Source: Lachnoclostridium sp. Marseille-P6806
GTDB lineage: Bacteria; Bacillota; Clostridia; Lachnospirales; Lachnospiraceae
Reading direction: 5' to 3'
NCBI RefSeq assembly: GCF_900625025.1
Contig: NZ_LR130583.1
Span: 1 to 64,000, forward strand
Length of the DNA stretch: 64,000 nucleotides
Shown here: piece by piece, positions 6,068 to 23,708 of the stretch
Numbering within the stretch: position 1 is the first letter of the stretch
Layout of the letters: every line of letters begins with the position of its first letter
Notes under the pieces: generated by a model
The model's input: only the letters and a program-made list of their open reading frames with translations
Databases searched by the model: none
Told to the model about the DNA's origin: nothing
Program-made: the position numbers and the translations under genes

Positions 6068-6100
6068 AGGTATTTCCTCCTTTGTATGATTTTCGGGGTC

Positions 6101-6344: not shown

Positions 6345-6375
6345 TATAACAAGTGTTATAATATAACAAAGTTAT
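6345..6375. promoter_or_regulatory. Candidate TetR operators
   Basis: TATAACA-AG-TGTTATA (6345-6360) and ATAAC-AAA-GTTAT (6363-6375) sit just before the ribosome site of the TetR gene. The ATAAC/GTTAT half-sites recur downstream of the gene at 7061-7073. This suggests autoregulation and control of the transporter operon. Confidence 0.55.
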
Positions 6376-6401
6376 TTTTGAAGAAAGGAGGTTGAAACAA
6401 G

Positions 6402-7040: not shown

Positions 7041-7052
7041 AAAAAATTTTTA

Positions 7053-7081
7053 CTCTAAAAATAACTAAGTTATTTTTAGAG
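7053..7081. promoter_or_regulatory. Palindrome downstream of tetR (operator and/or terminator)
   Basis: CTCTAAAAATAACT and AGTTATTTTTAGAG form a perfect 14-bp inverted repeat around one base. Its core ATAAC-TAA-GTTAT matches the operator core upstream of the TetR gene. It may be the operator of the transport operon, a terminator, or both. Confidence 0.6.
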
Positions 7082-7181
7082 TTCAATAAGACTATATTTT
7101 TTCTTTCAAAAATAAAATAAGAATATTATTTCTGGTGGATAAACAGAAGAATATTAAATAAAAAACTAAGGAGGAAGTATC

Positions 7182-7778
7182 ATGAATTTAAAAGGTATTG
7201 TAAAAATAGCAGTATTCTCTGTTATTGGATTTGTTTTGACGATGGGATTGGGATTTTTGACAGGATCATTTGGTATGATTCCAAGTTTGTATTTGTCATC
7301 TGCATTGCCAACAATTATTGTTGCACCTATTTTTGTAATTATGTGCAAGCAGGTTGGACAGAGAGGAACTGCTTTTTCATACTTTCTGTTGCTGGGTGTA
7401 TTCTATGCTCTTATGGGAATGTGGCCGGTAATTGTTGTTTGTGCTGTTGCAGGAATTTTGGCGGAATTTGTAATTGGTAAAAAAGAGAACTATACAAACA
7501 AAAATATGAAAGTTGGGATTGCTTTTGGAACAGGTATGTTTATCTATTCCTTACATGCTATGTATTTTGCTTTTGTATTTGGTGTCGAAGGACTTACAAA
7601 GCAATTTCCAAAGATGTTTACAGCCGATTACGCAACATTCCTTTACAATTTTTACACACCTAAAAATATCTTGATTTGTTTATTGATTGCAATTGTGGCT
7701 TCATTTATAGGTGCTTATTTTGGAACATATATTTACAATAAATTTTTTAGCGATAGGAAGAAAAAAAGTGTTTTGTAA
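7182..7778 (+). CDS. MptD-family ECF transporter S component
   Basis: A 198-aa membrane protein with about six hydrophobic segments, resembling the Trep_Strep/MptD substrate-binding (S) components of energy-coupling-factor importers. It starts at ATG 7182 after AAGGAGGAAGTATC. Conserved-looking features include GSFGMIPSLYLSSALPT and the central Gly-rich helix MWPVIVVCAVAGILAE. It would bind a small nutrient or cofactor in the membrane and use the adjacent T and A components. The substrate is unknown. The T gene overlaps its 3' end. Confidence 0.8.
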   Translation: MNLKGIVKIAVFSVIGFVLTMGLGFLTGSFGMIPSLYLSSALPTIIVAPIFVIMCKQVGQRGTAFSYFLLLGVFYALMGMWPVIVVCAVAGILAEFVIGKKENYTNKNMKVGIAFGTGMFIYSLHAMYFAFVFGVEGLTKQFPKMFTADYATFLYNFYTPKNILICLLIAIVASFIGAYFGTYIYNKFFSDRKKKSVL

Positions 7779-8481
7779 AAATGATAAAAAGAATATAAAT
7801 CAACACCAACTATCAGACAAAATCAACCCGCTTACTATAGTTGGGTTGATTTTACTATTTTCAGTTATTTTAACAGTAGGAGAACAATCGCAATATTTAT
7901 TTTCACTTATTTTTGTTTTAGGACTGTTATCCTTATTTTCAATTAAAAAAGCATTTAGGACGATATGTTCATTGCTTATAGTATGGGGGCTTATTTATTT
8001 ACTGAAACCTCATTTAGGAAATGTTTTGATTGGCTCTATATATACAATGCTACTTATAGTGTTGAAATTTGCTCCACTTTTCATCTTGGGAAGAGTTCTG
8101 TCTTCATATAGCTCTTCGCATCTAATTGCTGCATTTAGAAAAATTGGAGTTGATGGTGGAATAGGTATAGGAATCACAGTATTTTTTCGTTTTATTCCGG
8201 AAATCTCTATTAGGATGAAGGAAATAAACAACGGCATGAAAATTAGAGGATTTAAAGCAAGCATTTTCAAACCAATTAGAACATTTGAATTATATTTTGT
8301 TCCTCTTATGTATAAGTGCATAGACATAAGCGACACCTTAACTTGTTCAATTATATCAAAAGGAATTGAATACGATGGAAAAAAAACCAGTTTTCATGAG
8401 GTGAAAATTACATTTATTGATATCTCAATGATAGTCGGAGGGATGATTTTGTTGGGGGCGAGTTTATGGAAAATATTTTAG
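7768..8481 (+). CDS. ECF transporter T component (CbiQ-like)
   Basis: A transmembrane coupling protein of about 237 aa, CbiQ/EcfT type. I place the start at GTG 7768, eight bases after AGGAAG. The open frame extends to 7711 but would overlap the S gene deeply. Several hydrophobic helices precede the cytoplasmic region FRFIPEISIRMKEINNGMKI and RGFK, corresponding to the coupling helices that contact the ATPases. It links the S component upstream to the duplicated ATPase downstream, whose start lies inside its 3' end. Confidence 0.82.
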   Translation: MFCKNDKKNINQHQLSDKINPLTIVGLILLFSVILTVGEQSQYLFSLIFVLGLLSLFSIKKAFRTICSLLIVWGLIYLLKPHLGNVLIGSIYTMLLIVLKFAPLFILGRVLSSYSSSHLIAAFRKIGVDGGIGIGITVFFRFIPEISIRMKEINNGMKIRGFKASIFKPIRTFELYFVPLMYKCIDISDTLTCSIISKGIEYDGKKTSFHEVKITFIDISMIVGGMILLGASLWKIF

Positions 8482-9935
8482 AGGCAGAAATCAAATCATT
8501 TCATTATGGAGAGGATTTGATATTAAAAAATTTAAAAATGTCTGTAAAAAAAGGCGAAATTGTAGTCTTAACAGGTCTTTCCGGATGCGGAAAAACGACA
8601 CTTTTAAGATTACTAAACGGGCTTATTCCATACTTTTATGATGGTGATTTGGACGGAGAAATCAAGATTTTAGGGAAAGATATAACGGCATATAAAAAGG
8701 GAGAGTTAGCTAAATATATTGGCAATGTATTTCAAAATCCTAAAGATCAATTTTTTTGTGATGTAGTTGAAGATGAAATTGCTTTAGTGGGTGAAAATTT
8801 GGGCTTAGACAGGGATACATTAAAAGAAAAAGTTGAAAAAGCAATGGACTTGTTAGGAATAAGCCATATTAGCAAAAAATCCATTTTTGAATTATCAGGA
8901 GGAGAAAGGCAAAAGGTAGCTATAGCCGGAACTCTTATCTATGATACGGATATTATTTTTTTTGATGAGCCATCAAGCAGTCTTGATTACGATAGTATAA
9001 AACACTTCAGTGAAATACTTTTAAGATTGAAGGCGATGGGAAAGACAATAATTATAGCAGAACATAGGCTCTATTATTTAAAAGAGATTTTTAGCAGATT
9101 GATTTATATAAAAGACGGTACAATATGTGATATTTTTCCGAATGGGAGTCTTAGTAATGATAAGTGTAAGGAACTTGAGTTAAGAACACTTAATGAAAGA
9201 GAATTGATATCAGAAAAAGAACTTATTGTTGCTAAAAGTTATATCAAAGTAAATAAAGCCTGCATTCATCAAGGTAAAAGAACTTTGATAGAAGAATTAA
9301 CATTTGAGCTTGGAAAGAGTGAAATAATGGGAGTGATTGGTTCTAATGGTATTGGAAAAAGTACCTTAGCAAAAGCATTATGTGGATTATCTGAAAAATA
9401 TTTAGATGTCAGCTATGGACAGAAACAAAGAGAAAGGCTTAAAAATTCATATTGCGTGTTACAAGATGTAGATGCTCAGATTTTTTTAGACACAGTAGAA
9501 AATGAATTGATATTTTGTAAAGATAAAAACTCGGAAAGTGATTTAGAAAAAATACGAGAATATCTAAAAGATACAGATCTGTGGCATAAAAAAACCAATC
9601 ATCCACAGAAATTATCCGGTGGACAAAAACAACGATTGGCGATTATTACTTCGTTTTTATCTGGTCGTAAACTGATAATTTTGGATGAACCAACATCAGG
9701 TCTTGATTATAAAAGTATGAAAATTATGTCCGATTTAATGACAGAAAAAGCAAAGGAGATTCCAATTATAATAATTACTCATGACTTAGAGTTGTTATTT
9801 AAAACCTGTCATTCCGTCTTAATGCTCGGTGATAAGGATTATAAAAAAATATCTGTAAAGGGAAATGAAGCGTTAATCATGGATTTTATGGATAAAAAAG
9901 GAAATTTATTGAAGGAGAAAAACTATGTTAAATAA
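8466..9935 (+). CDS. ECF transporter double ATPase (A components fused)
   Basis: A 489-aa protein with two complete ABC ATPase domains. Domain 1 (about 1-230) has Walker A GLSGCGKTT, signature LSGGERQK and Walker B IIFFDEPSS. Domain 2 (about 255-480) has Walker A GSNGIGKST, signature LSGGQKQR and Walker B LIILDEPTSG. The fusion replaces the usual EcfA1/EcfA2 pair and powers uptake through the S and T proteins. The gene overlaps the T gene by 16 bp and the next exporter gene by 11 bp, so the operon is tightly coupled. Confidence 0.9.
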   Translation: MENILEAEIKSFHYGEDLILKNLKMSVKKGEIVVLTGLSGCGKTTLLRLLNGLIPYFYDGDLDGEIKILGKDITAYKKGELAKYIGNVFQNPKDQFFCDVVEDEIALVGENLGLDRDTLKEKVEKAMDLLGISHISKKSIFELSGGERQKVAIAGTLIYDTDIIFFDEPSSSLDYDSIKHFSEILLRLKAMGKTIIIAEHRLYYLKEIFSRLIYIKDGTICDIFPNGSLSNDKCKELELRTLNERELISEKELIVAKSYIKVNKACIHQGKRTLIEELTFELGKSEIMGVIGSNGIGKSTLAKALCGLSEKYLDVSYGQKQRERLKNSYCVLQDVDAQIFLDTVENELIFCKDKNSESDLEKIREYLKDTDLWHKKTNHPQKLSGGQKQRLAIITSFLSGRKLIILDEPTSGLDYKSMKIMSDLMTEKAKEIPIIIITHDLELLFKTCHSVLMLGDKDYKKISVKGNEALIMDFMDKKGNLLKEKNYVK

Positions 9936-11715
9936 GGTTTTTGAATATGCAGGTTCGCATAAAAAATCAATTCACTTAGCAAGTTTTATTATGCTTATTA
10001 GTGTAATTATGGGTGTGCTACCCTTTCTATTTGCATATCAGATTATCAATCCACTTATTTTAGGTGAGCAATTAGAATTTGAAAGACTTGCTATTTTATT
10101 GATCAGTATTTTAGTTTGTTTAGTGTTGCAAGCTGTCTTAGGAGGTTTAGGTCTTAATGTATCCCATAAAGCAGCATACAACACGCTACTTGGACTTCGA
10201 ACATCCTTACAGAAAAAAATGGAAGATCTGCCATTGGGTGTTGTTGAAGAAAAAGGGACTGGTACAATCAAAAAAATGTTCGTGGATGATATTGGCAGTT
10301 TAGAAGTGCTTTTAGCTCATTCACTTCCTGAAGGAATAGCGAACCTAATTGTACCTATTATGGTTTATATTTCAATGTTTTTTATTGACTGGAGATTAGC
10401 GTTAATGTCATTAGCTTCTATTCCGATTAGCATTCTTGCAATGATGATTATGTACTCTGTAGGTATGAAGCAAATGGGACCATATTATATGGCAAGTGGA
10501 AAAATGAACAATACCATTATTGAGTATGTAAACGGTATGGAAGTTGTAAAAGTATTTAATAAGCAAACAGAGTCTTATGAACGCCTTTCTAAAGATATAA
10601 GTAATTACAGAGATTATGCACTCGCTTGGTATAAGACGGCATGGCCATGGATGGCGTTATATAGTGCCTTACTTCCATGCACGATTATTTTAACATTGCC
10701 TCTTGGTGGTTATTTTGTGTATATGGGCTATGCAAGTCTTTCTAACTTAATATTAGTGTTATGTCTTTCTTTAAGTATAGGATTGCCACTCTTGAAAGCT
10801 CTTGGATTTTTACCAACTATGCCACAATTAAATTATAAGATTTCTGCTTTAGAACAAGCCTTAAATATGGCTCCTTTAAAGCAGGGAGAAAATGATTTTA
10901 AGGGAACAGGACAGACTATTTTATATGATAATGTTACCTTTGGCTATCAGCTAAACAAGATGGGAGAAAATGGACAGCCCGAAACCTATATTAAGAATGT
11001 TATTCATAATGTAAGTTTTACGGCAAGAGTTGGTGAAAAGACAGCGATTGTCGGTGAATCAGGTTCAGGAAAAAGTACTTTAGCTAAACTTTTAATTCAC
11101 TACTATGATGTTTTAGATGGAAGCATAAGTATTGGAGGACAAGACTTACGAGATATAAGATTGGAATCTCTCAATAAGCAAATTTCTTATGTAGCACAAG
11201 ACCAATATTTATTTAATACTTCGCTTTTAGAGAATATTCGTATTGGTAATTTAGCTGCAAGCGATGATGAGGTTATTGAAGCAGCTAAAAAAGCTCAGTG
11301 TATGGAATTCTTAAATAGACTTCCGGATGGTATTTATTCTTTAGCAGGGGAAGCAGGAAAAATGCTTTCAGGTGGAGAAAGACAAAGAATATCGTTAGCG
11401 AGAGCTATTTTGAAGAATGCTCCGATTGTTGTACTTGATGAGGCAACAGCCTATGCAGATCCTGAAAATGAAGAAAAAATGGAAGCAGCTATTCGTGAAC
11501 TTGTAAAAGGGAAAACCTTAATTGTTATTGCACACAAGTTACCATCTATTGTAGATGCAGATCAGATATTAGTTATGGATCATGGTCATTTAGTTGCAAA
11601 TGGAAAGCATAAAAACTTATTAGAATCTTCAGCAGAATATCGCAAATTATGGGATGCGACACTATTTAGTAAAGATTGGAAAATCAGCAGAAAGGAAGGT
11701 GAAATGAATGTTTAG
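9925..11715 (+). CDS. ABC half-transporter (permease-ATPase), first of pair
   Basis: A 596-aa type-IV-fold ABC protein: six transmembrane helices in residues about 15-310, then a nucleotide-binding domain with Walker A GESGSGKST, signature LSGGERQR and Walker B IVVLDEATAYADPENEEK. The segment after Walker B has AYADPENE in place of the common ASVD, as in several IrtA/YbtP-like proteins. It overlaps the next half-transporter by 8 bp, so the two should form a heterodimer. Direction and substrate are uncertain: such pairs export drugs or peptides, but the YbtPQ/IrtAB subgroup imports siderophores. Confidence 0.85.
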   Translation: MLNKVFEYAGSHKKSIHLASFIMLISVIMGVLPFLFAYQIINPLILGEQLEFERLAILLISILVCLVLQAVLGGLGLNVSHKAAYNTLLGLRTSLQKKMEDLPLGVVEEKGTGTIKKMFVDDIGSLEVLLAHSLPEGIANLIVPIMVYISMFFIDWRLALMSLASIPISILAMMIMYSVGMKQMGPYYMASGKMNNTIIEYVNGMEVVKVFNKQTESYERLSKDISNYRDYALAWYKTAWPWMALYSALLPCTIILTLPLGGYFVYMGYASLSNLILVLCLSLSIGLPLLKALGFLPTMPQLNYKISALEQALNMAPLKQGENDFKGTGQTILYDNVTFGYQLNKMGENGQPETYIKNVIHNVSFTARVGEKTAIVGESGSGKSTLAKLLIHYYDVLDGSISIGGQDLRDIRLESLNKQISYVAQDQYLFNTSLLENIRIGNLAASDDEVIEAAKKAQCMEFLNRLPDGIYSLAGEAGKMLSGGERQRISLARAILKNAPIVVLDEATAYADPENEEKMEAAIRELVKGKTLIVIAHKLPSIVDADQILVMDHGHLVANGKHKNLLESSAEYRKLWDATLFSKDWKISRKEGEMNV

Positions 11716-13453
11716 ACTAATTTCAAGAATTTTAAATTTATCAGGTAAATACAAAAACAGAATAAAGTCTGCATTTATATTTGCCTTTGTTGAATCTATA
11801 TTAAGTAAAATGCCGATATTTATTGCATTTACCGTTTTGATTGGATTTTATGAAAAAAGGAATACGTCCCAAACTTTTCTATATGTAGGAATAGGACTTG
11901 TTTTAGTGGTTTTATTACAAGCTGTGGTTCATTTCTTAAGCGATAAATTACAAAGTGCAGCCGGCTTTATGATTTTTGCTGATAAAAGAATGGAGCTTGG
12001 GAATCATCTTAGAAAGCTTCCGATGGGATATTTTACAGCAGGTAATTTAGGAAAAATAAATTCTGTTTTAAGTTCGGACATGGCTTTTATTGAAGAAGTT
12101 TCCATGAGTACGATTGCCAATATGATGAGCTATGTATTATCAACACTTGTACTAACAGTATTCATGTTTGTTTTAGATTACAGAATTGGACTGATTGCGG
12201 TGTGTGTAACACTGGTTGCAACATTACTTGCAAATAGCATGAATAAAATGTCTTTATCTGAAGCGGTTATTAGACAAGAACAAGGTGAAAAACTCACCGA
12301 TGCAGTTTTGTCATTTGCTGAGGGGATCAGTGTTATTAAAAGTTACAACCTTTTAGGCGAAAATTCTAAATCTCTTACAGATAATTTTATATCCTCAAAG
12401 GACACATCTATAAAATTTGAAAATAAAATAACACCATGGACAACCGGTTTAAATATTATTTATGGAATTGGGATTACATTTATTTTAGCAGTGGCTTTAT
12501 ATCTTAATCATCAAGGAACTTTGGGACTTCCATATATGTTGGGGCTTATTTTGTTTGTGTTTGACTTATTCAGCCCTTTAAAAACACTTTATGGTGAAGC
12601 GACAAGGCTTACTGTAATGAACGCTGCATTGGATCGTATTGAAGAAGTGTTAAATGAAACTGAACTGCAAGATGTGGGCAAAAAACATATTTCAAAATCT
12701 GATACCTCAGAACCTGAAATTTGTTTTAATCATGTTAAATTTTCTTATGGTGAAAAAGAGGTCTTGCATGATATGAGTTTCAAAATGAATAAGAATACAA
12801 TGACGGCTTTAGTTGGACAGTCCGGGGGAGGTAAATCCACAGTAGCAAATCTTTTGACAAGATTTTGGGATGTAAACTCCGGTGAAATTTTGATTAGAGG
12901 AGTGAATATAAAGGATGTTTCACTATCTGAATTGATGTCGGAAATCAGTATGGTTTTCCAGAGAGTTTATTTATTTCAAGATACGATTTTTAACAATATT
13001 GCCATGGGGAAAGAAAATGCAACGAAAGAAGAAGTTATAGAAGCAGCCAAGAAAGCAAGATGCTATGATTTTATTATGGCACTTCCTGATGGATTTGACA
13101 CAATGATTGGAGAGGGAGGAGCAACTTTATCCGGTGGTGAAAAACAAAGAATTTCTATTGCCCGTTGCATGTTAAAAGATGCTCCTATTGTAATTCTTGA
13201 CGAGGCAACAGCAAGTGTTGATGTGGACAATGAAAGCTATATACAGGAAGCAATTAGTGAATTAGTAAAGAATAAAACCTTATTAGTTATTGCTCACAGA
13301 TTAAATACGATTAGGGATGCCGACAATATTGTTGTAATCAAGGAAGGGAATATTGCAGAACAAGGAACGCATAATGAGCTAATTGCTTTAAATGGGATTT
13401 ATAAGAATATGGTAGAACTACAAAATAAAAATAATGGCGTAAAAATACTGTAA
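11708..13453 (+). CDS. ABC half-transporter (permease-ATPase), second of pair
   Basis: A 581-aa partner of the preceding protein. The transmembrane domain spans residues about 20-300, and the ATPase has Walker A GQSGGGKST, Q-loop region SMVFQRVYLFQDT, signature LSGGEKQR, Walker B IVILDEATASVD and a switch histidine in IAHRL. All ATP-hydrolysis motifs look intact. Its start overlaps the upstream gene, which supports a heterodimeric transporter. It is co-transcribed with the ECF genes, and the MATE gene begins 31 bp downstream. Confidence 0.86.
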   Translation: MFRLISRILNLSGKYKNRIKSAFIFAFVESILSKMPIFIAFTVLIGFYEKRNTSQTFLYVGIGLVLVVLLQAVVHFLSDKLQSAAGFMIFADKRMELGNHLRKLPMGYFTAGNLGKINSVLSSDMAFIEEVSMSTIANMMSYVLSTLVLTVFMFVLDYRIGLIAVCVTLVATLLANSMNKMSLSEAVIRQEQGEKLTDAVLSFAEGISVIKSYNLLGENSKSLTDNFISSKDTSIKFENKITPWTTGLNIIYGIGITFILAVALYLNHQGTLGLPYMLGLILFVFDLFSPLKTLYGEATRLTVMNAALDRIEEVLNETELQDVGKKHISKSDTSEPEICFNHVKFSYGEKEVLHDMSFKMNKNTMTALVGQSGGGKSTVANLLTRFWDVNSGEILIRGVNIKDVSLSELMSEISMVFQRVYLFQDTIFNNIAMGKENATKEEVIEAAKKARCYDFIMALPDGFDTMIGEGGATLSGGEKQRISIARCMLKDAPIVILDEATASVDVDNESYIQEAISELVKNKTLLVIAHRLNTIRDADNIVVIKEGNIAEQGTHNELIALNGIYKNMVELQNKNNGVKIL

Positions 13454-13484
13454 GAATATATTTGTAATAAATGGAGGTAAGTAC

Positions 13485-14831
13485 TTGAAACAGGATATGA
13501 AAGAACAACTACTAACCAAAAGACCGATAGACTTACTCTTTCAGCTATCTGTTCCGGCAGTTATAGGAATGATAGTCATCGGTCTATATCCCTTGATGGA
13601 CGGAATATTTGCCGGAAAAATTATAGGACAAACAGCAATGACCGCTTGTGGTGTTGCAATGCCGCTCACCTTTTTTAACAGCGGGATTTCAACTCTACTC
13701 GGTGTAGGCTCAGCTTCTGTCCTATCAAGAGCAATTGGAAAAGGAGATCAGAAAACTGTAGATAAAATTATGGGTAACTTAATCTTTTGGGTGATTTTGT
13801 TCTCTGCTATCATCACAGTCGGAGGAATCCTCCTCGCACCGCATTTTTTAGATATGGTCGGTGCAACAGGTGAAATTAAAGCCTATGGTATCAGATACCT
13901 TAGAGTGATTTTTATAGGTTCTCTATTTGTGAACTTTACACAGTCAGCCAATATGGTGATGCGTGGCGAAGGACTGATGAAAAAAGCCATGCTGATTATG
14001 GGTTTTGGTGCTTTGCTTAATATCATACTTGATCCGATACTAATGACCGTTATGGGAGAAAATGCTATTGAAGGTGCTGCACTTGCAACGATCACAGCCC
14101 AATTTGTTCAAGCTGCTGTAACACTACATTATTTCTTGAAAAAGAGTAAGGTCGTTAAAATTCATAAGATACAATCTGATGCGGAAATTAAAAAAGAAAT
14201 GTTTTCTGTCGGTTCATCCGCTATGATGATGCAGCTCTTATTTATGATACAACAAACAATGCTTTATAAAATGGCATTTAAATATGGTGGAGATACGAAC
14301 GGAATTTTGATGGCGGCATCGCTTCGTGTATATGCCTTTTCCTTTATTCCGCTTTGGGGAATGAGTCAGGGGCTGCAACCTGTGGTTGGTACAAACTTCG
14401 GAGCAAAACAGTTTGACAGAGTAAGACAAGGTATGAAGGTGTTTTCTATTGGAGGACTTATCCTTGCAGCAATCTTTTGGCTTCCATCTTTACTGTTTTC
14501 AAGTCAGATCCTTTCCTTGTTCGGTGTAGAGGCAAGCATTATTGCACAGGGAGTAGGAAACTTCAGATTGTTCTATTCTGTATTTATCTTGTACGGCGTG
14601 ATGGTTATGACGATTACATTCTTCCAATCAATCGGAAACGGAAAGAAAGCCGGAACTATTGTTATGCTTAGACAGTTATTCTTATTTGTTCCTGCAATGA
14701 TCTTTTTGCCAATGGTATTTGGAATAAAAGCAGTATGGTTCACACAACCACTGGTAGATTTCATTATGATTACTGTTGGAATACTTATGATGCTTAGTGA
14801 ACTTAATAAAATGGGGAAAGACAAAGCATAA
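13485..14831 (+). CDS. MATE-family efflux transporter
   Basis: A 448-aa protein with about twelve hydrophobic helices in two homologous halves, typical of MATE drug or metabolite antiporters (VPAVIGMIVIGLYPLMDGIF at the N-terminus, SQGLQPVVGTNFGAKQ in the second half). It starts at TTG 13485 after GGAGGT. It would export cationic or amphipathic compounds using a sodium or proton gradient. Its place at the end of the TetR-ECF-ABC operon suggests one regulated transport cargo module. The substrate cannot be inferred. Confidence 0.87.
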   Translation: MKQDMKEQLLTKRPIDLLFQLSVPAVIGMIVIGLYPLMDGIFAGKIIGQTAMTACGVAMPLTFFNSGISTLLGVGSASVLSRAIGKGDQKTVDKIMGNLIFWVILFSAIITVGGILLAPHFLDMVGATGEIKAYGIRYLRVIFIGSLFVNFTQSANMVMRGEGLMKKAMLIMGFGALLNIILDPILMTVMGENAIEGAALATITAQFVQAAVTLHYFLKKSKVVKIHKIQSDAEIKKEMFSVGSSAMMMQLLFMIQQTMLYKMAFKYGGDTNGILMAASLRVYAFSFIPLWGMSQGLQPVVGTNFGAKQFDRVRQGMKVFSIGGLILAAIFWLPSLLFSSQILSLFGVEASIIAQGVGNFRLFYSVFILYGVMVMTITFFQSIGNGKKAGTIVMLRQLFLFVPAMIFLPMVFGIKAVWFTQPLVDFIMITVGILMMLSELNKMGKDKA

Positions 14832-15561: not shown

Positions 15562-15953
15562 AATTTCGGTAACCAAAGGGGTCAAATTTTCCTTATATAA
15601 AGTGAAGGGGAGTTTGACCTCTTTTACTTTCTTGAAGAAGAGAATGCCGGTTAAGGCAAATTGGAAGATAAAAAGAAAAATCCCTTTCAAATATTTTGTT
15701 CTTTGACAACTGAATAGACCAAGGTAGGACTTTATCTGCTTGTGGAGAATTATGACTTACGCCAAGACCTTTCTGCTAAAAAATATTTTGGTTCAATGAA
15801 TACTGAGAAAATCAAGGAAACAAGGAAGCGAGCGACAAATAAGATTACATAAAAAACAGAGGTGGCAATCTGTTCGTTGAAATAAGCAGTGATAATGATA
15901 CTTCAATAGTTTATGCCGGCTCGTCTGGAATAAGAGGCGGAGGTGAGATTCCT
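15562..15953 (+). other. Non-coding region between sigma-like gene and small peptide gene
   Basis: It begins with a hairpin, AAAGGGGTCAAA (15575-15586) with TTTGACCTCTTT (15613-15624, one G-T pair), probably a terminator for the sigma-like gene. The remaining 320 bp have no convincing gene. They contain TTGTTCTTTGACAACTG and a purine-rich stretch leading to the ribosome site GGAGGTGA at about 15940. No clear promoter was seen. Confidence 0.4.
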
Positions 15954-16007
15954 ATGTTGTCAGCCAAGACACCTACCAATGTCAAAAAACTTAAAGAAAG
16001 AAAATAA
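15954..16007 (+). CDS. 17-residue basic peptide
   Basis: ATG 15954 follows GGCGGAGGTGAGATTCCT, a near-perfect ribosome site at good spacing, and encodes MLSAKTPTNVKKLKERK before TAA. Five lysines and one arginine make it strongly basic. It lies 19 bp upstream of the next small gene and in the same direction. It could be a leader peptide for translational coupling or a small product in its own right. No function is recognised. Confidence 0.5.
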   Translation: MLSAKTPTNVKKLKERK

Positions 16008-16026
16008 CGGTGGAAGGAGCTTTTTT

Positions 16027-16257
16027 ATGGACACAGAAGAATTAACAAGATATAAAAATATGTCAGTGAATGAGATTGATCAAAGACTCGTTCCGGACAT
16101 TGAAGATATAAAGAACAAGAAAAAAATGGATCCGCTTTCCATGTACTTTATGAAAGTCGGAAATGTTATCGTCAAATGCAGTTATGCAGGAAACGGAAGA
16201 AGTTTAGCGGATTGCTTTTTGTCCTATTTAGAAAAGAAAGCGATGCTGCTTGATTAA
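16027..16257 (+). CDS. Small mobile-element protein (DUF6870/TnpW-like)
   Basis: A 76-aa protein starting at ATG 16027, seven bases after AAGGAG. The C-terminal part, FMKVGNVIVKCSYAGNGRSL followed by ADCFLSYLEKK, resembles small conserved proteins of unknown function (DUF6870 or TnpW-like) that accompany integrative elements in Clostridia. The N-terminal part is charged. The family assignment is from memory of the pattern. It lies directly upstream of the recombinase operon, from which a promoter separates it. Confidence 0.55.
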   Translation: MDTEELTRYKNMSVNEIDQRLVPDIEDIKNKKKMDPLSMYFMKVGNVIVKCSYAGNGRSLADCFLSYLEKKAMLLD

Positions 16258-16294
16258 AAATATGATAAAAGGGGCAGACTTTTTTACGAATTTA

Positions 16295-16303
16295 TGGTAT
16301 AAT
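16295..16303 (+). promoter_or_regulatory. Extended -10 promoter for the recombinase operon
   Basis: TGGTATAAT at 16295-16303 is an extended -10 element. The -35 region (about 16275-16280) is poor, as is common with extended -10 promoters. It lies about 100 bp before the first recombinase. Confidence 0.5.
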
Positions 16304-16401
16304 ACGAATCAAATAGGGATACAACTTAAATAAGTGCTTGAAAAGACTCCAAGTTATCATATTTCTCTTGAAAAAGAATATGAAAGTTTGGAGGTTTTGT
16401 T

Positions 16402-18063
16402 ATGTCTAAAAGAATTTCGGATACCTATCGGGTAGCCATGTATCTTCGACTATCTCAGGATGACGAAAAATACGATAAAGATTTCAAGGCGGAAAGCAAC
16501 AGTATTTCCAATCAAAGACTTCAAATCCAAGATTACATTGATAAAAACGAGGAGATGGAGCTTGCAAAGGAATATGTAGATGACGGATATTCAGGAATCA
16601 ATTTTGAGCGACCGGCATTTAAAGAAATGATGGAGGATGTGATTACAGGCAGTATCAACTGCATTGTTGTAAAAGACTTATCCCGTTTCGGCAGAGATTA
16701 TATTGACAGCGGAAGATATTTGCAAAGAGTGTTCCCCTCTCTTGACATCAGGTTCATTGCCTTAAATGACAATTATGACAGTTTCACAGCCAGTGAAACG
16801 GAAAAGAATCTGGTGATTCCTTTTAAGAATTTCATCAACGACAACTATTGCAGGGATACCTCCGCAAAGGTCAGAAGTGTTTGTAAAGTAAAGAGAAAAC
16901 AAGGACAGTTTATATCAAACTATGCTCCTTACGGTTATGAAAAAGATAAGGAAGATAAGCACAAAATAGTAATTGATAAAGAAGTGGAATATGTGGTGCG
17001 AAAAATCTTCTCCATGAAACTGGAAGGATACAGCTCCTATTCGATTGCCAAACACTTAAACGATAATGGAATCCCCTCACCGATGGAGCATAAAAAGACA
17101 AAGGGAATACGGTATAAGACAGGCTTCAGCACAAAGGCGGTTGCCAAGTGGGATACGCCTGCGGTCAATCGCATTTTAATCAATGAGATCTATATTGGAA
17201 CACTTCAACAGGGAAAACGAGAAAAGATCAATTATAAGCTGGATAAAGTGGTTTCCAAAGACAAAAGCGATTGGATTGAAATTGAAGATAACCATGAGGC
17301 GATTATTGATCCCCATGACTTTGAAATCGTCCAAAAACTTTTAAAATGCGATATCAAGGCGAAAACGGTCGGAGAAAAAGCGGATTTGTTTTCCGGACTT
17401 CTCTTTTGCAAAGACTGTAACGCACAGATGACAAAGAAAGTCGATAAACGAGGGAAAACACCGACCGTCTATTATATTTGCTCCTCATACAATAAGGGGC
17501 AAGATTGCAGCAGGCACTCCATAAAGCAGGAAGAATTGCAAAGGACAGTGCTTGAAATGATTCGGCATTATATTCAGTATCTTGGGGAATACGAAAGTGT
17601 TTCAGAGAAAATCAAAGAGATGGAAGTATCCTATGAACTGTTTCAAAAAATAGATAAAAGACAGGAATACACCAAGAAAAGCAAGGCAAAATTTGAACTT
17701 TTAAAATCTTCCCTTTATCAAGATTTGAAGGAAGGCATTATTGCGGAAGAAGAATTTTATGATATGAGGGAGTTTTACACGAATCGTATCGTAGAAAGTG
17801 AGCTGATTTTAGAAAAGCAGAGTAAGGAAATTGCAAGGCTCTACAAAAAGAGTTTGGGCAATCAGAATTTCCTTGCAGATATCAAAAAGTATCAAAACAT
17901 CGGTACTTTAGAAAGAGGACTCCTTGTTCGACTTGTTGATAAAATCTATGTTTTAGAAGATAAGAAAATAGAAATTCAGTTTAACTATGACGAAACGATC
18001 GAGATTCTGGATAAGTTGAGCAGCTATACCTTTCAAACTCCTGAAATCAGGGAGGTGGTATAG
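16402..18063 (+). CDS. Large serine recombinase 1
   Basis: A 553-aa recombinase with the resolvase-type catalytic domain at residues about 8-160. YLRLSQDDE carries the candidate nucleophile Ser, and KDLSRFGRDYIDSGRYL follows near residue 95. The recombinase domain (about 180-300) and a zinc-ribbon (CKDCNAQM and YICSSYNKGQDC) come next, then a C-terminal coiled-coil. It starts at ATG 16402 after TTTGGAGG. Such enzymes cut and rejoin att sites to integrate or excise elements. It is the first of three adjacent homologues, with the second starting immediately after its stop. Confidence 0.93.
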   Translation: MSKRISDTYRVAMYLRLSQDDEKYDKDFKAESNSISNQRLQIQDYIDKNEEMELAKEYVDDGYSGINFERPAFKEMMEDVITGSINCIVVKDLSRFGRDYIDSGRYLQRVFPSLDIRFIALNDNYDSFTASETEKNLVIPFKNFINDNYCRDTSAKVRSVCKVKRKQGQFISNYAPYGYEKDKEDKHKIVIDKEVEYVVRKIFSMKLEGYSSYSIAKHLNDNGIPSPMEHKKTKGIRYKTGFSTKAVAKWDTPAVNRILINEIYIGTLQQGKREKINYKLDKVVSKDKSDWIEIEDNHEAIIDPHDFEIVQKLLKCDIKAKTVGEKADLFSGLLFCKDCNAQMTKKVDKRGKTPTVYYICSSYNKGQDCSRHSIKQEELQRTVLEMIRHYIQYLGEYESVSEKIKEMEVSYELFQKIDKRQEYTKKSKAKFELLKSSLYQDLKEGIIAEEEFYDMREFYTNRIVESELILEKQSKEIARLYKKSLGNQNFLADIKKYQNIGTLERGLLVRLVDKIYVLEDKKIEIQFNYDETIEILDKLSSYTFQTPEIREVV

Positions 18064-19749
18064 ATGGCAAGAACAGCAAATCGAAGAATAAAGTCGGAAG
18101 AAATGCTTAGCAAAGAAAATATAAACAGCTTTCAAACGGCAATCTATGCAAGAATCTCAAGAGATAAAAAAGAAAAACCGAGCGACTCCATTGAAAATCA
18201 AATTGCTCTTTGCGAGAGCTTCATTCAAAAAAGTGAGGATTTCAGTTTAGCAGGAATCTATAAAGATATTGCAAAGACGGGAACGGACTTTGAACGACCG
18301 GACTTTGAAAACTTGATGGATGAAGTACGAATGGGGAAAGTCAACTGCATTGTTGTAAAAGACCTATCAAGGTTTGGAAGAAACTATACGGAACTTGGCA
18401 ATTTCATTGAAAAGATCTTCCCGTTTCTTGGGGTAAGATTTGTGGCAGTCAATGACAATTTAGATACCTTCCACATGGACGATCCCAATAAATCACTGGA
18501 AGTCATTCTAAAAAATATTGTCAATGAAACCTATGCAACGGATATTTCAAAGAAAGTATCAAGCTCTCATCAGATGAGGATCAAACAAGGCGGATTCATC
18601 TGTGGAGCAGCTCCTTATGGATATGTGGCACGAAAAGATGAAGATGGAATCCGACGCTTGTATCCGGATGAAAATACAGCTCCCATTGTTAAAGAAATCT
18701 TTGATGCCTATCTGAAAGGACTGAGTACACTGGGTATATCCAAACTTCTTTTGGAAAAAAGAGTGTATATTGCAACCGATTATCGAAAATTCGGGAAAGT
18801 TGTATCGGATGGGGATGAACCGATTCAGATATGGCAACCGACTACAATTTTACAGGTGCTTAAAAATCGTGCCTATACTGGAACTTTAATACAGGGAAGA
18901 AATCAAAAACATCTTTATGAAGGGAAATCAAGGGAAAGACTCTCTGAAGAACACTGGACAGTAACCGAAAATGCCCATGAAGCCATTATTTCGATGGATA
19001 CCTTTGAAAAGGTGCAGGAGAAGATTTCCGAAAAATCAGCTCCGATAAAAAGAAGCAGAAAGGAAAATGCGACTGCCAAAGACGATACTATCTTTCGAGG
19101 AATGGTTTACTGCAACCTTTGTCAAAAAAGAATGAGCGTTCATCGACAATTAAGCGGGAAAAGAACGGTATTTTACTTTAGCTGTAATCGATTTGGAGAA
19201 TACAAAGCGGAAAAATGCGGAACAGCAATTACAGAGGTGACACTTCAAAATACCGTAAAAGCTGCATTTGATACCATTCTTTTAAACAATAAGAAAAGCT
19301 ATAAGGCATATTTAGACGGGTATGCGGATAAAAAAAGAGAAGTGGAGCAGCAAAAGGAAAAAGAACTGACAGAAATCGGCAGAAGAATCTCAGGACTGAG
19401 CAGGCTTCAAAGTGAGTATTACGAAAAGTATGTCTTGGGAGATTGGAGAAAGGAAGATTTTGAAAGAGAAAAGGAACATCTTCATCAGAAGAAAAAAGAA
19501 CTGGAACACCTAAAAGAAAAGCAAATTGCCATCTTTGAAGAAGAAAAACGAAGGCTCGAAGAAAAGCACAAGTATCTGAAAGCTCTCTTTAAGGGCAAGA
19601 CGAAGAAATGGGACAAAGAGTTTGTGAAAGCCATCATAGATAAGATATTCATCGGAAAAGACCATACGGTAGAAACCCAATTTAACTTTGAAGAAACGCC
19701 TGTCATTACCGAAAAAATCGGAAGAAAGGTAAAAAAGGTGATGCTATGA
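18064..19749 (+). CDS. Large serine recombinase 2
   Basis: A 561-aa homologue of the flanking genes. The catalytic motif is YARISRDKKEK, with KDLSRFGRNYTELGNF at about residue 100. The zinc-ribbon (CNLCQKRM and FSCNRFGEYKAEKCG) and a long coiled-coil are intact. The ATG follows the upstream TAG directly, and the stop overlaps the next start as ATGA, so all three are translated from one message. Motifs are complete, so each is likely active or part of a multi-subunit recombinase. Confidence 0.93.
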   Translation: MARTANRRIKSEEMLSKENINSFQTAIYARISRDKKEKPSDSIENQIALCESFIQKSEDFSLAGIYKDIAKTGTDFERPDFENLMDEVRMGKVNCIVVKDLSRFGRNYTELGNFIEKIFPFLGVRFVAVNDNLDTFHMDDPNKSLEVILKNIVNETYATDISKKVSSSHQMRIKQGGFICGAAPYGYVARKDEDGIRRLYPDENTAPIVKEIFDAYLKGLSTLGISKLLLEKRVYIATDYRKFGKVVSDGDEPIQIWQPTTILQVLKNRAYTGTLIQGRNQKHLYEGKSRERLSEEHWTVTENAHEAIISMDTFEKVQEKISEKSAPIKRSRKENATAKDDTIFRGMVYCNLCQKRMSVHRQLSGKRTVFYFSCNRFGEYKAEKCGTAITEVTLQNTVKAAFDTILLNNKKSYKAYLDGYADKKREVEQQKEKELTEIGRRISGLSRLQSEYYEKYVLGDWRKEDFEREKEHLHQKKKELEHLKEKQIAIFEEEKRRLEEKHKYLKALFKGKTKKWDKEFVKAIIDKIFIGKDHTVETQFNFEETPVITEKIGRKVKKVML

Positions 19750-21290
19750 ATACCGTAGATTTTTATCTAAGACTTTCACTGGAAGATGGCGATCAGCAAG
19801 ACGAAAGCAACAGTATCACTTCCCAAAGAGAAATCTTAAAGGACTATATCCGCTCAAGGGAAGAATTTACAGGTGTTCAAATCAGGGAACACATTGATGA
19901 TGGTTATACCGGAACAAACTTTAATCGCCCCGCATTTCAAAAGATGATCGCTTTGGTCAAGAAAAATGAAATAAAGACCATACTTGTAAAAGACTTATCT
20001 CGTTTTGCCAGAGATTATATCGAATCGGGAGCCTATATCGAGCAGATTTTTCCCTTTATGCAAGTTCGGTTTATTTCTGTGAATGACAATTATGACAGTA
20101 AGAACAACGAGAACGGAATCAGCAGTTTGGAAATTCCTTTTAAGAATCTTGTCTATGACTACTATTCCAAGGATATTTCACAAAAAATTCGTTCTTCCGT
20201 TAAAATCAGACAAGAGAAAGGCTATTACTTCGGTTCAAAAGCACCCTATGGATATGTAAAAGACGAAAAAGACCATCATCAACTCAATGTCGATGAAGAA
20301 GTAAGACCGATCGTAAAAGAAGTGTTTACGAGGTATTTAAGTGGCGAAAGTATGCTTGCGATTGCCAAATATTTTAACGAGAGAGAAGTTTTAACCCCTG
20401 CCAAGCACATAGGACTGAAAAGAGGAAGCGGAATTTGGACAGGACAGATTGTTCGCTATCTCTTAACCCAACGAGTTTATACCGGAGCAATCGTTGGCGG
20501 AAAGACAAGAGTGTATGAAGTCGGATCAGATCATCGACAATGGATGGATAGCGAGGACTGGATTATACGGGAAAATATGCACGAAGCCATCATCTCCCAA
20601 GAGGATTTTGCGGAAGTTCAAAACCGATTAAGCAGCAATGCAAAACATATCAGCCGAGAACGGAAGCATTTTCATATTCTTCAGGATAAAGTCTATTGCG
20701 GGAAATGCCATCATAAGATGAGCTATACCGTTTACTCCGGAAAAAGTGACGGATATTATTGTCCATATCGGTATAAGGCAAAAGACTGTGGCTGCATGAA
20801 AGGAAAGATACAAGCCTCGGTACTGAAAGAAATCGTATTAAAGGAAATTCAGCTTTACACCGAGAGCTTTCTTGAAAAAGAACAGACGAGGATGATTGAG
20901 CAAAAAGTTAGAGAAAGTATTTGTGAGAGCCTGCTTGAGCGAAAGAAAAAGCTGGAAGCGGAACAACAAAAGAATCAAATTTCCAAAATGCAGTGTTATG
21001 AAAGGCATAAACAAGGTATCATAGAGAAAGAAGAATATATTTCAAAACGAGAAACCCTGACACAAAGAACGAGGGATATCAAACAGGAAATATCGGTCAT
21101 AGAGGATAAGATACAAGAAAATGCAGCTTTAAGGCATCATATGAATGTCGATAAGCTAAGAGAAGCGGTAGCAGAAGGAGAACTTGTTTTAGACTGGATC
21201 AACGAAGTGATAGACAGAATCTATGTTTATGACAAGGACAAGGTAGAGATTGTTTGGAAATTTGAGGAAGGTGGTCGACTTGAGGTGTAA
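19746..21290 (+). CDS. Large serine recombinase 3
   Basis: A 514-aa third homologue. The catalytic domain has YLRLSLEDGDQ and KDLSRFARDYIESGAY. The recombinase domain contains RQEKGYYFGSKAPYGYVK, the zinc-ribbon is CGKCHHKM with YYCPYRYKAKDCGC, and a C-terminal coiled-coil follows. It starts at ATG 19746, overlapping the stop of recombinase 2. The stop codon lies in a hairpin (TTGAGGTG/CACCTCAA, 21280-21304). Recombinase genes usually sit next to an element end, so the attachment site is probably near here. Confidence 0.93.
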   Translation: MNTVDFYLRLSLEDGDQQDESNSITSQREILKDYIRSREEFTGVQIREHIDDGYTGTNFNRPAFQKMIALVKKNEIKTILVKDLSRFARDYIESGAYIEQIFPFMQVRFISVNDNYDSKNNENGISSLEIPFKNLVYDYYSKDISQKIRSSVKIRQEKGYYFGSKAPYGYVKDEKDHHQLNVDEEVRPIVKEVFTRYLSGESMLAIAKYFNEREVLTPAKHIGLKRGSGIWTGQIVRYLLTQRVYTGAIVGGKTRVYEVGSDHRQWMDSEDWIIRENMHEAIISQEDFAEVQNRLSSNAKHISRERKHFHILQDKVYCGKCHHKMSYTVYSGKSDGYYCPYRYKAKDCGCMKGKIQASVLKEIVLKEIQLYTESFLEKEQTRMIEQKVRESICESLLERKKKLEAEQQKNQISKMQCYERHKQGIIEKEEYISKRETLTQRTRDIKQEISVIEDKIQENAALRHHMNVDKLREAVAEGELVLDWINEVIDRIYVYDKDKVEIVWKFEEGGRLEV

Positions 21291-21300
21291 TAATTTCACC
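21282..21300 (+). repeat. Copy 1 of a 19-bp direct repeat flanking the toxin-antitoxin locus
   Basis: GAGGTGTAATAATTTCACC matches the sequence at 22092-22110 in 16 of 19 positions. The two copies bracket the type III toxin-antitoxin locus. Copy 1 overlaps the end of recombinase 3. Confidence 0.45.
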
Positions 21301-21352
21301 TCAAACTTCGGGAAATACTTTTTGTGCCAGTCTTATTTTAATAACTTGGGTG

Positions 21353-21381
21353 TTGTAAAAAAACGAATCATATGCTATAAT
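21353..21381 (+). promoter_or_regulatory. Promoter of the type III antitoxin RNA
   Basis: TTGTAA (21353-21358) and TATAAT (21376-21381) are spaced by 17 bp, with an extended TGC before the -10. Transcription would begin near 21388, just ahead of the first RNA repeat. Confidence 0.8.
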
Positions 21382-21393
21382 TTAGGCAAGCAA

Positions 21394-21535
21394 ATGTTAG
21401 CCGTTTCTCATAGGACGGGATATAAAATTATGAGGTGTAATTTAGCCACTTGCCGATGGTGTGGGATATAAATAATTCGGTGCGTAAATGTAGCCACTTA
21501 CTATATGGGTGGGGTATAAATAATATAGTGCGTAA
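21394..21535 (+). ncRNA. Type III antitoxin RNA: three tandem 47-48-nt repeats
   Basis: Three imperfect tandem repeats occupy 21394-21440, 21441-21487 and 21488-21535. Each contains a TAGCC motif near the start, GGGATATAAA or GGGGTATAAA in the middle, and ends in GTGTAA or GTGCGTAA. A strong promoter precedes them and a rho-independent terminator follows, then the toxin gene. This order (promoter, RNA repeats, terminator, toxin) is the hallmark of type III systems, in which the toxin cuts the RNA into repeat units that bind and inhibit it. The repeat length is closest to that recalled for CptI. Repeat 1 differs most. Confidence 0.82.
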
Positions 21536-21569
21536 ATCCCTCTAATCAAAATGATAGAGGGATTTTTTT
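21536..21569 (+). terminator. Terminator between antitoxin RNA and toxin gene
   Basis: ATCCCTCT (21536-21543) pairs with AGAGGGAT (21556-21563), extended by ATCA/TGAT, and is followed by a run of seven T. In type III systems this terminator keeps the RNA in excess and allows limited read-through into the toxin. Confidence 0.9.
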
Positions 21570-21579
21570 GGAGGTTTGT

Positions 21580-22053
21580 ATGGAGGTAAAACAAGGATAT
21601 TCTTATCATATAAAGGATCGTTTCTTTTCTGATGTGTCAGATTCCTCTCTAATGAGCAACAAGGAAAATGGAAATTATCGACCGCATTACTATGCAATTG
21701 AGGATTCAAAGAATAAAGATATTTTTTGGATGATACCGATTAGCTCGAAAGTAGAAAAATACAAAAAGATTGTTGCTTCTAAAATAAAGAGAAACGGAAA
21801 GTGTAGCACGATTGTAATTGGGACATTTGCCGGGGAAGAAAATGCGTTTTTGATACAAAATGCCTTTCCGGTTAAAGCGGTTTATTTGGATCATGTGCAT
21901 ACGATTCAAGGGAATCCGATTACGGTACACAAAAAATTGGATAAAGAACTTCGGACAAAGCTGAAGGAAGTCATCGCTATGAAGAAAAGAGGAATCAATC
22001 TGTTTTTTACAGATGTAGATATGATTTTAGAGCTTATGAACAGGTTGAAATAG
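21580..22053 (+). CDS. Type III toxin, ToxN/CptN/TenpN-like endoribonuclease
   Basis: A 157-aa protein. ATG 21580 is chosen because GGAGG lies five bases upstream and the frame before it enters the terminator. The sequence matches the ToxN/AbiQ superfamily as recalled for CptN/TenpN members: N-terminal GYSYHIKDRFFSDV, the core RPHYYAIEDSKNKDIFWMIP, ISSKVEKYKKI, TIVIGTFAG, FLIQNAFPVKAVYLDH, and the C-terminal RGINLFFTDVDMILELMNRL. These toxins are endoribonucleases held inactive by their repeat RNA. The locus could stabilise the element or abort phage infection. Which named family (CptN, TenpN or ToxN) fits best is not settled. Confidence 0.87.
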   Translation: MEVKQGYSYHIKDRFFSDVSDSSLMSNKENGNYRPHYYAIEDSKNKDIFWMIPISSKVEKYKKIVASKIKRNGKCSTIVIGTFAGEENAFLIQNAFPVKAVYLDHVHTIQGNPITVHKKLDKELRTKLKEVIAMKKRGINLFFTDVDMILELMNRLK

Positions 22054-22091
22054 GTAGTAAATTTTAGAACTTGATTGCTATGCTAAGTTTC

Positions 22092-22110
22092 AAGGTGCAA
22101 AAATTTCACC
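22092..22110 (+). repeat. Copy 2 of a 19-bp direct repeat flanking the toxin-antitoxin locus
   Basis: AAGGTGCAAAAATTTCACC, a near copy of 21282-21300. It lies 39 bp after the toxin stop and may mark the end of a captured or inserted module. The rest of the gap to 22191 has no gene. Confidence 0.45.
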
Positions 22111-22191
22111 ATGAATAAGTGTAAAGCAAGCGCGATCAAAAATCTTGACCTTAAAAAAGCAATTTCTGAAAGAAAAAAATGTATCCAATAC

Positions 22192-22220
22192 TTGACACAA
22201 GGGTGAGAATGAAGTTGATA
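22192..22220 (+). promoter_or_regulatory. Promoter candidate for the His-Xaa-Ser gene
   Basis: TTGACA (22192-22197) and TTGATA (22215-22220) are 17 bp apart. A start near 22227 would give a message beginning upstream of ATG 22262 but downstream of the alternative ATG 22209. Confidence 0.45.
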
Positions 22221-22261
22221 AAAAAGTATTTCCGGCGCTAAAAAAGGCGCTGGGTGATTAT

Positions 22262-23047
22262 ATGACAGATGAAGAGGGAAATATTACACGAAATAAGATC
22301 ATTACAGTTGGTGCTATGGCTATTATTTTGGGTATGTTTTACACGATGAATGTGTATGCCGCACATCGATCACATAGCTCCCATCGATCGCATAGCTCTC
22401 ATCGGTCACATAGCTCACATTCGTCGGGAAGTTCGGGGACAACTTATTATAATCATTCTAATCATTCAAGCCATGCCAGTTCCAGTGTTTCGACGAATAC
22501 ACAGCTAATTAACACACCATCAAGAGGAGTAACGTATACAGCGCCGGCTTACACGGCTCAGTCGGCTGTTCGGCGGGCATATGCGCTATATGTTCAGAAT
22601 GGAATGGATTCGGACACAGCCATGAACCGGGTTCAAACTAAAATGTCAGAACTGATGAGTCAGCCTGATTCTGTAGACGATATTGTTCAAGAGGACTTAA
22701 ACTCTTTACGCGTTGCAGCAACAACGGCAGCAATCGGTCTTACATTAGAGCAGGCAGTGCAATTGGCATACCAGCTATATATTCAGGCTGGGTTTGACTC
22801 GGCGACGGCTTTGGCTAGAATCAATATCATCATGCCGCAATTAACTGCAAATCCTGAGGCATATAGTTTTATTGTTCAAACGGATATTATGGCATTAGGC
22901 TCCGCGGCAGTGGGCGCAACTACTCTTCAATTAACGCAAGAGCAGTTGGTCCAACAGGCATATGCGCAGTATATAGCGCAGGGGATGACGTCAGAACAGG
23001 CATTCGCTATGGTGAATGCCAATTTATCAACCATTATAGGAAATTAG
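22262..23047 (+). CDS. His-Xaa-Ser repeat protein (HxsA-like), secreted
   Basis: A 261-aa protein. Residues 13-33 form a hydrophobic signal or anchor ending in NVYA. Residues 35-53 are a run of His-Xaa-Ser triplets (HRSHSS repeated), followed by a Ser/His-rich stretch to about 75. The rest contains three imperfect helical repeats of about 50 residues (102-150, 163-212, 227-260) with the pattern AY-x2-Y-x3-G-x5-A-x4-V. HxsA-type peptides are modified by radical SAM proteins HxsB and HxsC; neither is adjacent here. ATG 22262 has GGTGA five bases upstream. The frame is open for 22 further codons upstream but without a start codon. Composition is intermediate between the element and the host. Confidence 0.72.
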   Translation: MTDEEGNITRNKIITVGAMAIILGMFYTMNVYAAHRSHSSHRSHSSHRSHSSHSSGSSGTTYYNHSNHSSHASSSVSTNTQLINTPSRGVTYTAPAYTAQSAVRRAYALYVQNGMDSDTAMNRVQTKMSELMSQPDSVDDIVQEDLNSLRVAATTAAIGLTLEQAVQLAYQLYIQAGFDSATALARINIIMPQLTANPEAYSFIVQTDIMALGSAAVGATTLQLTQEQLVQQAYAQYIAQGMTSEQAFAMVNANLSTIIGN

Positions 23048-23071
23048 AAAATAAGATCTGGTGAATAATGG

Positions 23072-23110
23072 AAGACTCCCCAAGGTAATGTGCTTTGAGG
23101 AGTCTTTATA
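23072..23110. terminator. Terminator after the His-Xaa-Ser gene
   Basis: AAGACTCC and GGAGTCTT, with further pairing of CAA/TTG inside, form a hairpin followed by TTTATA. It sits close to the AT-rich to GC-rich transition and can serve genes on both sides. Confidence 0.7.
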
Positions 23111-23132
23111 CTATACATAGAATTCAGCTGCC

Positions 23133-23708
23133 TCACCCTCCCCTCATCACCGTTTGCACAATCAGCTGCGCTGCGCCGCAGCCGGCCATGACCGCGATGG
23201 GGTTCACTTTCTTTTTCAGCCGCAGGATGAGCAGCGCGCCGAGGAAGTAGGCGGCCATGAGGGGCTGAAAATTCCCCGGGGCGAAAGAAACCGAGCCGGA
23301 GCGGAAAAGCGCGGGGATCAGGATGTTCAGGCCGGCGGAAAAAATCATGGCGACCACGGCGGGGCGGAGCGATTTCAGGATTCCCTGTATCAGGGCGAGC
23401 TTTTGGTATTTATTGTAGAGATAAGCTAAGGCGGTGACAAGGAGGCAGGAGGGCAGAATGACGCCGACGGTCGCCGCGAGCGCGCCGGGGATGCCGGCTA
23501 CCTGATTGCCGGCGAAGGTGGCGGCATTGATGGCGATCGGGCCGGGGGTCATCTCCGCAATCGTGACGAGCGCCGTGAAATCCTCGATGCTGAGCCATGC
23601 GTACCGATCGATCACCTGCGATTGGATCAGCGGCATGGCGGCATACCCGCCGCCGAAGCTGAAAGCGCCGATCTGCAGAAAGGCAAAAAACAGCTGCCAG
23701 TAAATCAT
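23133..23708 (-). CDS. Chromate transporter family subunit, second
   Basis: A 191-aa half-size ChrA-family membrane protein. It has the family motifs FSFGGGYAAMPLI near the N-terminus and MTPGPIAINAATFAGNQVAG, with about six hydrophobic segments. Half-size chromate transporters work as pairs of oppositely oriented subunits. In many anaerobes their physiological substrate is not established. The start overlaps the stop of the preceding subunit gene by four bases (ATGA), so the pair is translationally coupled. It is the first clearly GC-rich gene of the host region. Confidence 0.88.
   Translation of the reverse strand: MIYWQLFFAFLQIGAFSFGGGYAAMPLIQSQVIDRYAWLSIEDFTALVTIAEMTPGPIAINAATFAGNQVAGIPGALAATVGVILPSCLLVTALAYLYNKYQKLALIQGILKSLRPAVVAMIFSAGLNILIPALFRSGSVSFAPGNFQPLMAAYFLGALLILRLKKKVNPIAVMAGCGAAQLIVQTVMRGG

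Follow-up and report, generated by a model that had tools for sequence, protein, structure and literature searches.

The stretch of DNA analysed here (the window, the first 64,000 nucleotides of contig NZ_LR130583.1 of Lachnoclostridium sp. Marseille-P6806) carries at 21353-22053, on the forward strand, a promoter-like site, three repeats, a terminator hairpin with a T tract, a ribosome binding site and a gene of 157 aa, in that order from 5' to 3'. There is little doubt that this is a CptIN type III toxin-antitoxin locus, an additional member of a known family. Its upstream neighbours, outside the toxin-antitoxin locus, are three tandem large serine recombinases recognized by Pfam (16402-21290, forward strand), the third gene ending at 21290.

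The promoter-like site, TTGTAA-17-TATAAT at 21353-21381, is of the extended -10 type with a TG ahead of the -10 hexamer. By count, chance alone would give as many such sites here (5.1 expected in 21000-22400, six found), and the hexamer varies in relatives (TATAGT, TAAAAT, TACAAT and CATAAT in L001-L004). The repeats follow at 21393-21534. Between antitoxin and toxin lies a Rho-independent terminator (21534-21565) with a folding energy of -15.7 kcal/mol (z -5.4), equalled by none of 200 shuffles; a simple terminator scan detected none at the locus, probably because the stem is bulged. The ribosome binding site GGAGG (21570-21574) precedes cptN, which starts with ATG at 21580 and whose stop codon ends at 22053, with its reading frame intact. 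Against Rfam, the interval 21200-22200 gave at E up to 1 only two sub-threshold matches (24.9 and 20.6 bits), taken as chance because the gathering score is 60. A first-pass annotation made from the letters alone had described the promoter sequence, three tandem repeats (given there as 47-48 nt, measured here as 46-48 nt), the strong terminator and the gene with its ribosome site, and all are present, the promoter with the reservation about its frequency. Its assignment to a type III system agrees with the toxin family and with the order of repeat array and terminator, which fit CptIN.

The protein matches the NCBIfam model for CptIN toxins (NF047359) with E 2.2e-59 and 199.6 bits against a cut-off of 90, and a PDB search gave a single strong match, the crystallised CptN of Eubacterium rectale (4rmo, E 2.1e-32, residues 5-148). 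The TenpIN model remains below threshold (E 0.061, 13.5 bits, cut-off 90). No ToxN/AbiQ model occurs among the Pfam, NCBIfam and PADLOC matches up to E 1, in libraries that may not all hold one. Pfam assigns the toxin to no toxin family, and its weak DUF620 and Fumerase matches, below cut-off, were discarded. The earlier placing of the protein among CptN/TenpN-like members of the ToxN/AbiQ superfamily is supported by the CptIN model and by the solved CptN structure.

A CptN match is present in 60 loci, of which 56 were aligned, four being dropped because their proteins fall short of 131 aa (L007, L008, L029, L033); two of the 56, L071 and L074, probably duplicate the genomes of L001 and L003. 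In window numbering, R34, P53 and S55 never vary among the 56 proteins, and 55 of them have Ser or Thr at position 56. The active site of E. rectale CptN is a Ser-Ser/Thr-Arg triad (PMC4627078), with whose two serines S55 and position 56 agree; R34 is at most a candidate for its arginine. Arg53 of E. rectale, which adjoins the catalytic serines, is Lys in the window and in 36 of the 56 proteins. Three residues reported to hold the scissile adenine in the E. rectale enzyme (PMC4627078) are also changed in the window, Asp81 to Ala, Ser85 to Asn and Tyr104 to His, His being the commonest residue at the last site (32/56, against Tyr in 23/56).

The three repeats can each form an H-type pseudoknot of the CptI kind, a folding potential rather than a solved fold. 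Repeat 1 (21393-21438) would pair CCGUU with GACGG as stem 1 (21401-21405/21414-21418) and CUCAUA with UAUGAG as stem 2 (21407-21412/21429-21434). In repeat 2 (21439-21486) the stems are CCAC/GUGG (21446-21449/21461-21464) and GCCGA/UCGGU (21452-21456/21477-21481), only four and five pairs, the outer pairs being unpaired in repeats of this type. Repeat 3 (21487-21534) has CCACU/GGUGG (21494-21498/21508-21512) and ACUAUAU/AUAUAGU (21500-21506/21523-21529). In all three the first loop is a single base and the second contains UAUAAA, a stretch that holds the equivalents of A29 and U30 of E. rectale CptI, where change or loss abolished antitoxicity (PMC4627078).

Standard repeat finders see this array poorly: Tandem Repeats Finder did not report it and a separate repeat search caught only pieces of it. 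The argument for the array is instead that eight loci conserve it and that its stems pair; the pairing was counted in two ways. The first used 19 of the 24 distinct repeats in an alignment fitted manually to the structure, and hence leaning towards it: 202 of 222 pair cells were standard, whereas shuffled data averaged 162 and none of 2000 shuffles scored as high. This count left out repeat 2 of L001, L004 and L008, the second repeat of L006 and the first of L076; the hand alignment was used because MAFFT misplaced the 5' half of repeat 1 by one base. A pair-counting tool, run on the MAFFT alignment with 17 of the 24 distinct repeats (six repeat-1 rows and repeat 2 of L004 excluded), found 85.8% of cells paired against 75.7% when shuffled, and a covariation of 0.353 against 0.171 (0.038-0.093 in slid registers). 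Doubly changed cells numbered 28, compared with 10.1 in shuffled data, and no shuffle out of 500 reached any of these three values. Other measures did not rise clearly above the shuffled level: pairs changed on both sides numbered 7 of 12 by hand, reached by 1498 of 2000 shuffles, and 5 against 3.5 with the tool, reached by 51 of 500. Pair types were fewer than in shuffled data (6 against 8.5, reached by 500/500). The pseudoknot for which covariance folding had been proposed can thus form in each of the three repeats, the stems staying paired as their sequence changes.

Repeat 1 had been singled out beforehand as especially divergent, and its identities of 0.68 to repeat 2 and 0.67 to repeat 3, against 0.80 between repeats 2 and 3, agree. 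The wider claim that the repeats diverge more than usual holds only in part: other members of the family also have heterogeneous repeats, and the divergence seen in the window is conserved position by position across eight loci. A family-wide search for repeat chains covered 58 loci and found a chain in 52, the six without being L018, L029, L033, L073, L080 and L085; identities between repeats ran from 0.65 to 1.00 in 48 of the 52 detected pairs, with L004, L005 and L027 (misplaced chains) and L088 (doubtful first start) left out. In the rest of the window's clade the chain begins at repeat 2, and the junctions of the clade were therefore read separately. Inspection also showed in L080 two CptI repeats with an extra stretch of about 70 bases between them, unlike the other arrays inspected.

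The nearest system of known structure is E. rectale CptIN (PDB 4RMO; PMC4627078), which shares with the window the locus order, the toxin family, the catalytic serines and pseudoknot repeats of 45-48 nt whose first loop is a single base and whose second is rich in A. It differs in having two repeats where the window has three divergent ones, and the window lacks the AAA core at the repeat 1/2 junction, has the altered adenine pocket and probably sits at the end of a mobile element. With ToxIN/AbiQ and TenpIN the locus has in common the type III principle of repeat RNA, terminator and endoribonuclease, but the toxin family is another one, and ToxI-type repeats are given as 34-36 nt (PMC5086642) against 46-48 nt here.

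A scan with one genome per species yielded 29 loci, and across the order 44 of 392 genomes had a match over the cut-off. Eight relatives are close. Toxin identity is 88-98% in L001-L005, 92 and 94% over the matched part in L007 and L008, which are fragmentary in their records, and 71% in L006. The window's three repeats are present in all seven of L001-L005, L007 and L008, whereas L006 carries a pair of a different type. Three of the closest copies (L001-L003, 97-98% toxin identity, the same three repeats and terminator) are in Lachnoanaerobaculum, also of the Lachnospiraceae. By blastn of the eight loci against the window, a conserved block extends over 21326-22211. L001 has all of it and L003 nearly all, starting at 21330, both at 97-98% DNA identity, while L002 and L004-L008 share parts; the flanks are common in full to L001 and L003 and in part to L002. 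The window's own genome has one CptIN copy, and a search of 36 further genomes of the genus, many of them incomplete, gave no match in any; from these two observations the locus was probably acquired from elsewhere. No relative was found among viral contigs.

The surroundings of the block are not conserved. Neighbours differ among the six loci inspected (L001-L005 and L007), and no recombinase was seen within 3 kb in any of them when ORF lists were read by eye. By such reading L002 lies by pectin-type genes, L004 by a DNA polymerase gene, L005 by hydrolase and flavodoxin-like genes and L007 by genes for Lon and a small GTPase; CRISPR repeats adjoin L001 and L003. In L001 (570-6471) there are 46 copies of a CRISPR repeat of about 30 bases, mostly 64-68 bases apart, three degenerate ones preceding the block, and in L003 (3617-3900) one near-match, besides a few degenerate copies picked out by eye. 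In Clostridioides difficile, type I toxin-antitoxin pairs have been reported next to CRISPR arrays (PMC6563280). Also in L001, a gene for a 576-aa DDE transposase (840-2570, Pfam) stands between identical 91-base duplications (647-737 and 2712-2802). As the duplication includes the cptI promoter, this insertion leaves the locus its promoter. IS1634 is known for long target duplications of this sort.

In the window itself, on balance, a serine-recombinase element probably carries the locus as cargo at its right end, its left end lying beyond the start of the contig. This reading is drawn from the right edge of the block (22181-22211), which recurs after other cargo genes, and from the step in G+C, which goes from 0.35 through about 0.45 to 0.57 past the edge. 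The first 25 bases of the edge, with up to three mismatches, were found at eight places in 6 of the 392 genomes, three with CptIN and five without; a reversed-edge control had none among the matches listed. The five are after an ORF6N gene (Pfam E 4.9e-31) in G057, after a gene with the same tail in G397 and G402:C5, after a short tail-like piece in G118:C126 and after another gene in G118:C81. The 25 bases are possibly a recombination site. The edge, shared by CptIN and other cargo (window, L094 and L097-L100), is followed by a GGAATG(T/C)AAA-like sequence at five of the eight places.

Further genes that are probable parts of the mobile element and its cargo lie at 4377-14831: a relaxase (PF03432), a TetR regulator and an ABC transporter, followed by transporter-like genes recognized by eye. 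Just past the edge, at 22262-23047, is a gene for a 261-aa secreted-looking protein with 9/18-base tandem repeats that code for His-Ser-rich sequence and no Pfam family over the cut-off. An empty site was not found: a comparison of 22150-23157 with 60 other genomes of the genus gave one 72-base match (74%, G073). A near search of plasmids with 15600-22260 gave no match, and a distant search of phage records gave four with weak matches, all inside the recombinase genes.

It is also possible, if not our preferred account, that the block is a free-moving passenger unrelated to the adjoining recombinases, the element having been inserted alongside by chance. The loci of L002, L004, L005 and L007, which stand alone amid chromosomal-looking genes, favour this, and such standalone copies speak against a fixed link between locus and recombinases. 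As the six inspected relatives have none within 3 kb, the link in the window is not general. In G057, however, the same right edge follows an ORF6N gene directly behind recombinase genes 93-97% identical to the window's, and in L003 pieces matching window 15697-15793 (82%) and 16109-16264 (90%) stop 25 bases before the block. One recombinase gene of G057 (L065 7663-9237) is a natural chimera, its start matching window recombinase 2 and the remainder recombinase 3. The idea that the block is a self-contained transposable unit was dropped, as no clear terminal inverted repeats or flanking duplications were seen by eye; the 11-base TGGAATGTAAA that flanks it on both sides in L001 is part of the CRISPR repeat. 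The relatives of this complete and well-conserved locus hint at how such modules travel: they occupy varied places, share an edge with other cargo and, in two genomes of oral Lachnoanaerobaculum, adjoin CRISPR repeats.

The analysis shows directly that the locus belongs to the CptIN family, has the expected order of parts, could form the pseudoknots, is conserved and occurs in varied genomic places; its working can be sketched by analogy. A single transcript from 21353-21381 would carry the three pseudoknot RNAs. Most transcripts would end at the terminator and some continue into cptN, and since most stop there, antitoxin would outnumber toxin mRNA. CptN, a ribonuclease of the ToxN/Kid fold, would cut the repeat RNA and then be locked by its own products; cleavage, 2:2 assembly and inhibition are inferred here from E. 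rectale CptIN. Were the locus lost, the labile RNA would no longer be renewed and free CptN would cut cellular RNA. The locus is most likely an addiction module, and its context makes it more likely that it helps to keep its element than that it stops phages. Maintenance is favoured because plasmids carrying the E. rectale system were retained at 100% instead of about 50%, while a panel of more than 200 coliphages met no resistance from it (PMC4627078), and because, according to a review (PMC5086642), anti-phage activity was seen for neither of the two CptIN systems tested.

These results also weigh against the unlikely case that the same locus is chiefly an abortive-infection module, as ToxIN and AbiQ are. 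Type III relatives do abort infection (PMC5086642) and the L001 and L003 blocks adjoin CRISPR repeats, but, besides the negative phage results for the two CptIN systems, PADLOC returned no match and no relative was found in viral contigs.

One odd feature of the locus is the junction of repeats 1 and 2 (21438-21439), GUGU/AAUUU, with AA where the other three junctions have AAA. E. rectale CptN cuts after A45, ahead of AAG (PMC4627078). In the window's clade of eight loci (the window, L001-L005, L007 and L008), three of the four junctions (ahead of repeat 1, from repeat 2 to repeat 3 and behind repeat 3) show A/AA in 24 of 24 cases, whereas at the repeat 1/2 junction U precedes the repeat start in eight of eight and the AAA core is absent. 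This junction and the divergence of repeat 1 might be signs of decay, repeat 1 dying and its junction being a broken processing site. Such an account is improbable. Repeat 1 averages 93% identity over the eight loci (minimum 0.85), a position-by-position conservation that argues against decay; its stems stay paired through changes, apart from single mismatches in L003 and L005, and the window's cptN frame is intact. That the repeats arose by chance ahead of an unrelated gene, as their poor detection by standard finders might suggest, is refuted for practical purposes by the CptIN model and 4rmo matches, by the pair-count test and by the recurrence of the array in eight loci, where its stems pair and a toxin of the corresponding family follows.

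The same core is missing elsewhere. In a separate clade of Bacilli/Tenericutes metagenome-assembled genomes (L009-L017, L019 and L020), several rows of which are near-duplicates, the internal junction has C in 11 of 11 loci and the outer junctions A in 22 of 22; L021 has G at its internal junction. On a CptN tree of 54 proteins without support values (L071 and L074 left out, L007 and L008 absent), the nearest kin of the window's clade (L006, L075, L076) have A at the junction, as does L023, the neighbour of the Bacilli clade. If A is ancestral, these positions imply that the AAA core was lost at least twice. A tentative proposal is that in some CptIN lineages the loss of the core, behind which the toxin would be expected to cut, leaves two pseudoknots joined as one RNA, an arrangement that would have arisen independently at least two times. 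Two features bear on this. The window junction GUGUAAUUU can also be read with the A kept and one base of repeat 2 missing, and a shifted cut is then possible; in L004 and L005, with a single A there, it is less likely. Furthermore, L084 and L088 have U at both internal and 3' junctions, so that A may not be strictly needed.

For ToxIN in cells, mostly full-length and intermediate RNA has been reported, with the suggestion that ToxN binds uncut ToxI across both of its RNA-binding faces (PMC5772629), and multi-repeat forms as such are therefore already known. In the available portions of that report and of PMC8860590 no statement of a lost internal cleavage site was found. The junction without an AAA core may be a new feature. 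If the proposal is true, the uncut RNA would correspond to both RNAs of the CptIN 2:2 ring, already joined; in the window repeats 1 and 2 would be linked and repeat 3 free. Textbook accounts of type III systems include self-processing of the repeat RNA into single units; should the internal junction truly stay uncut, it would follow that this step can be given up at chosen sites.
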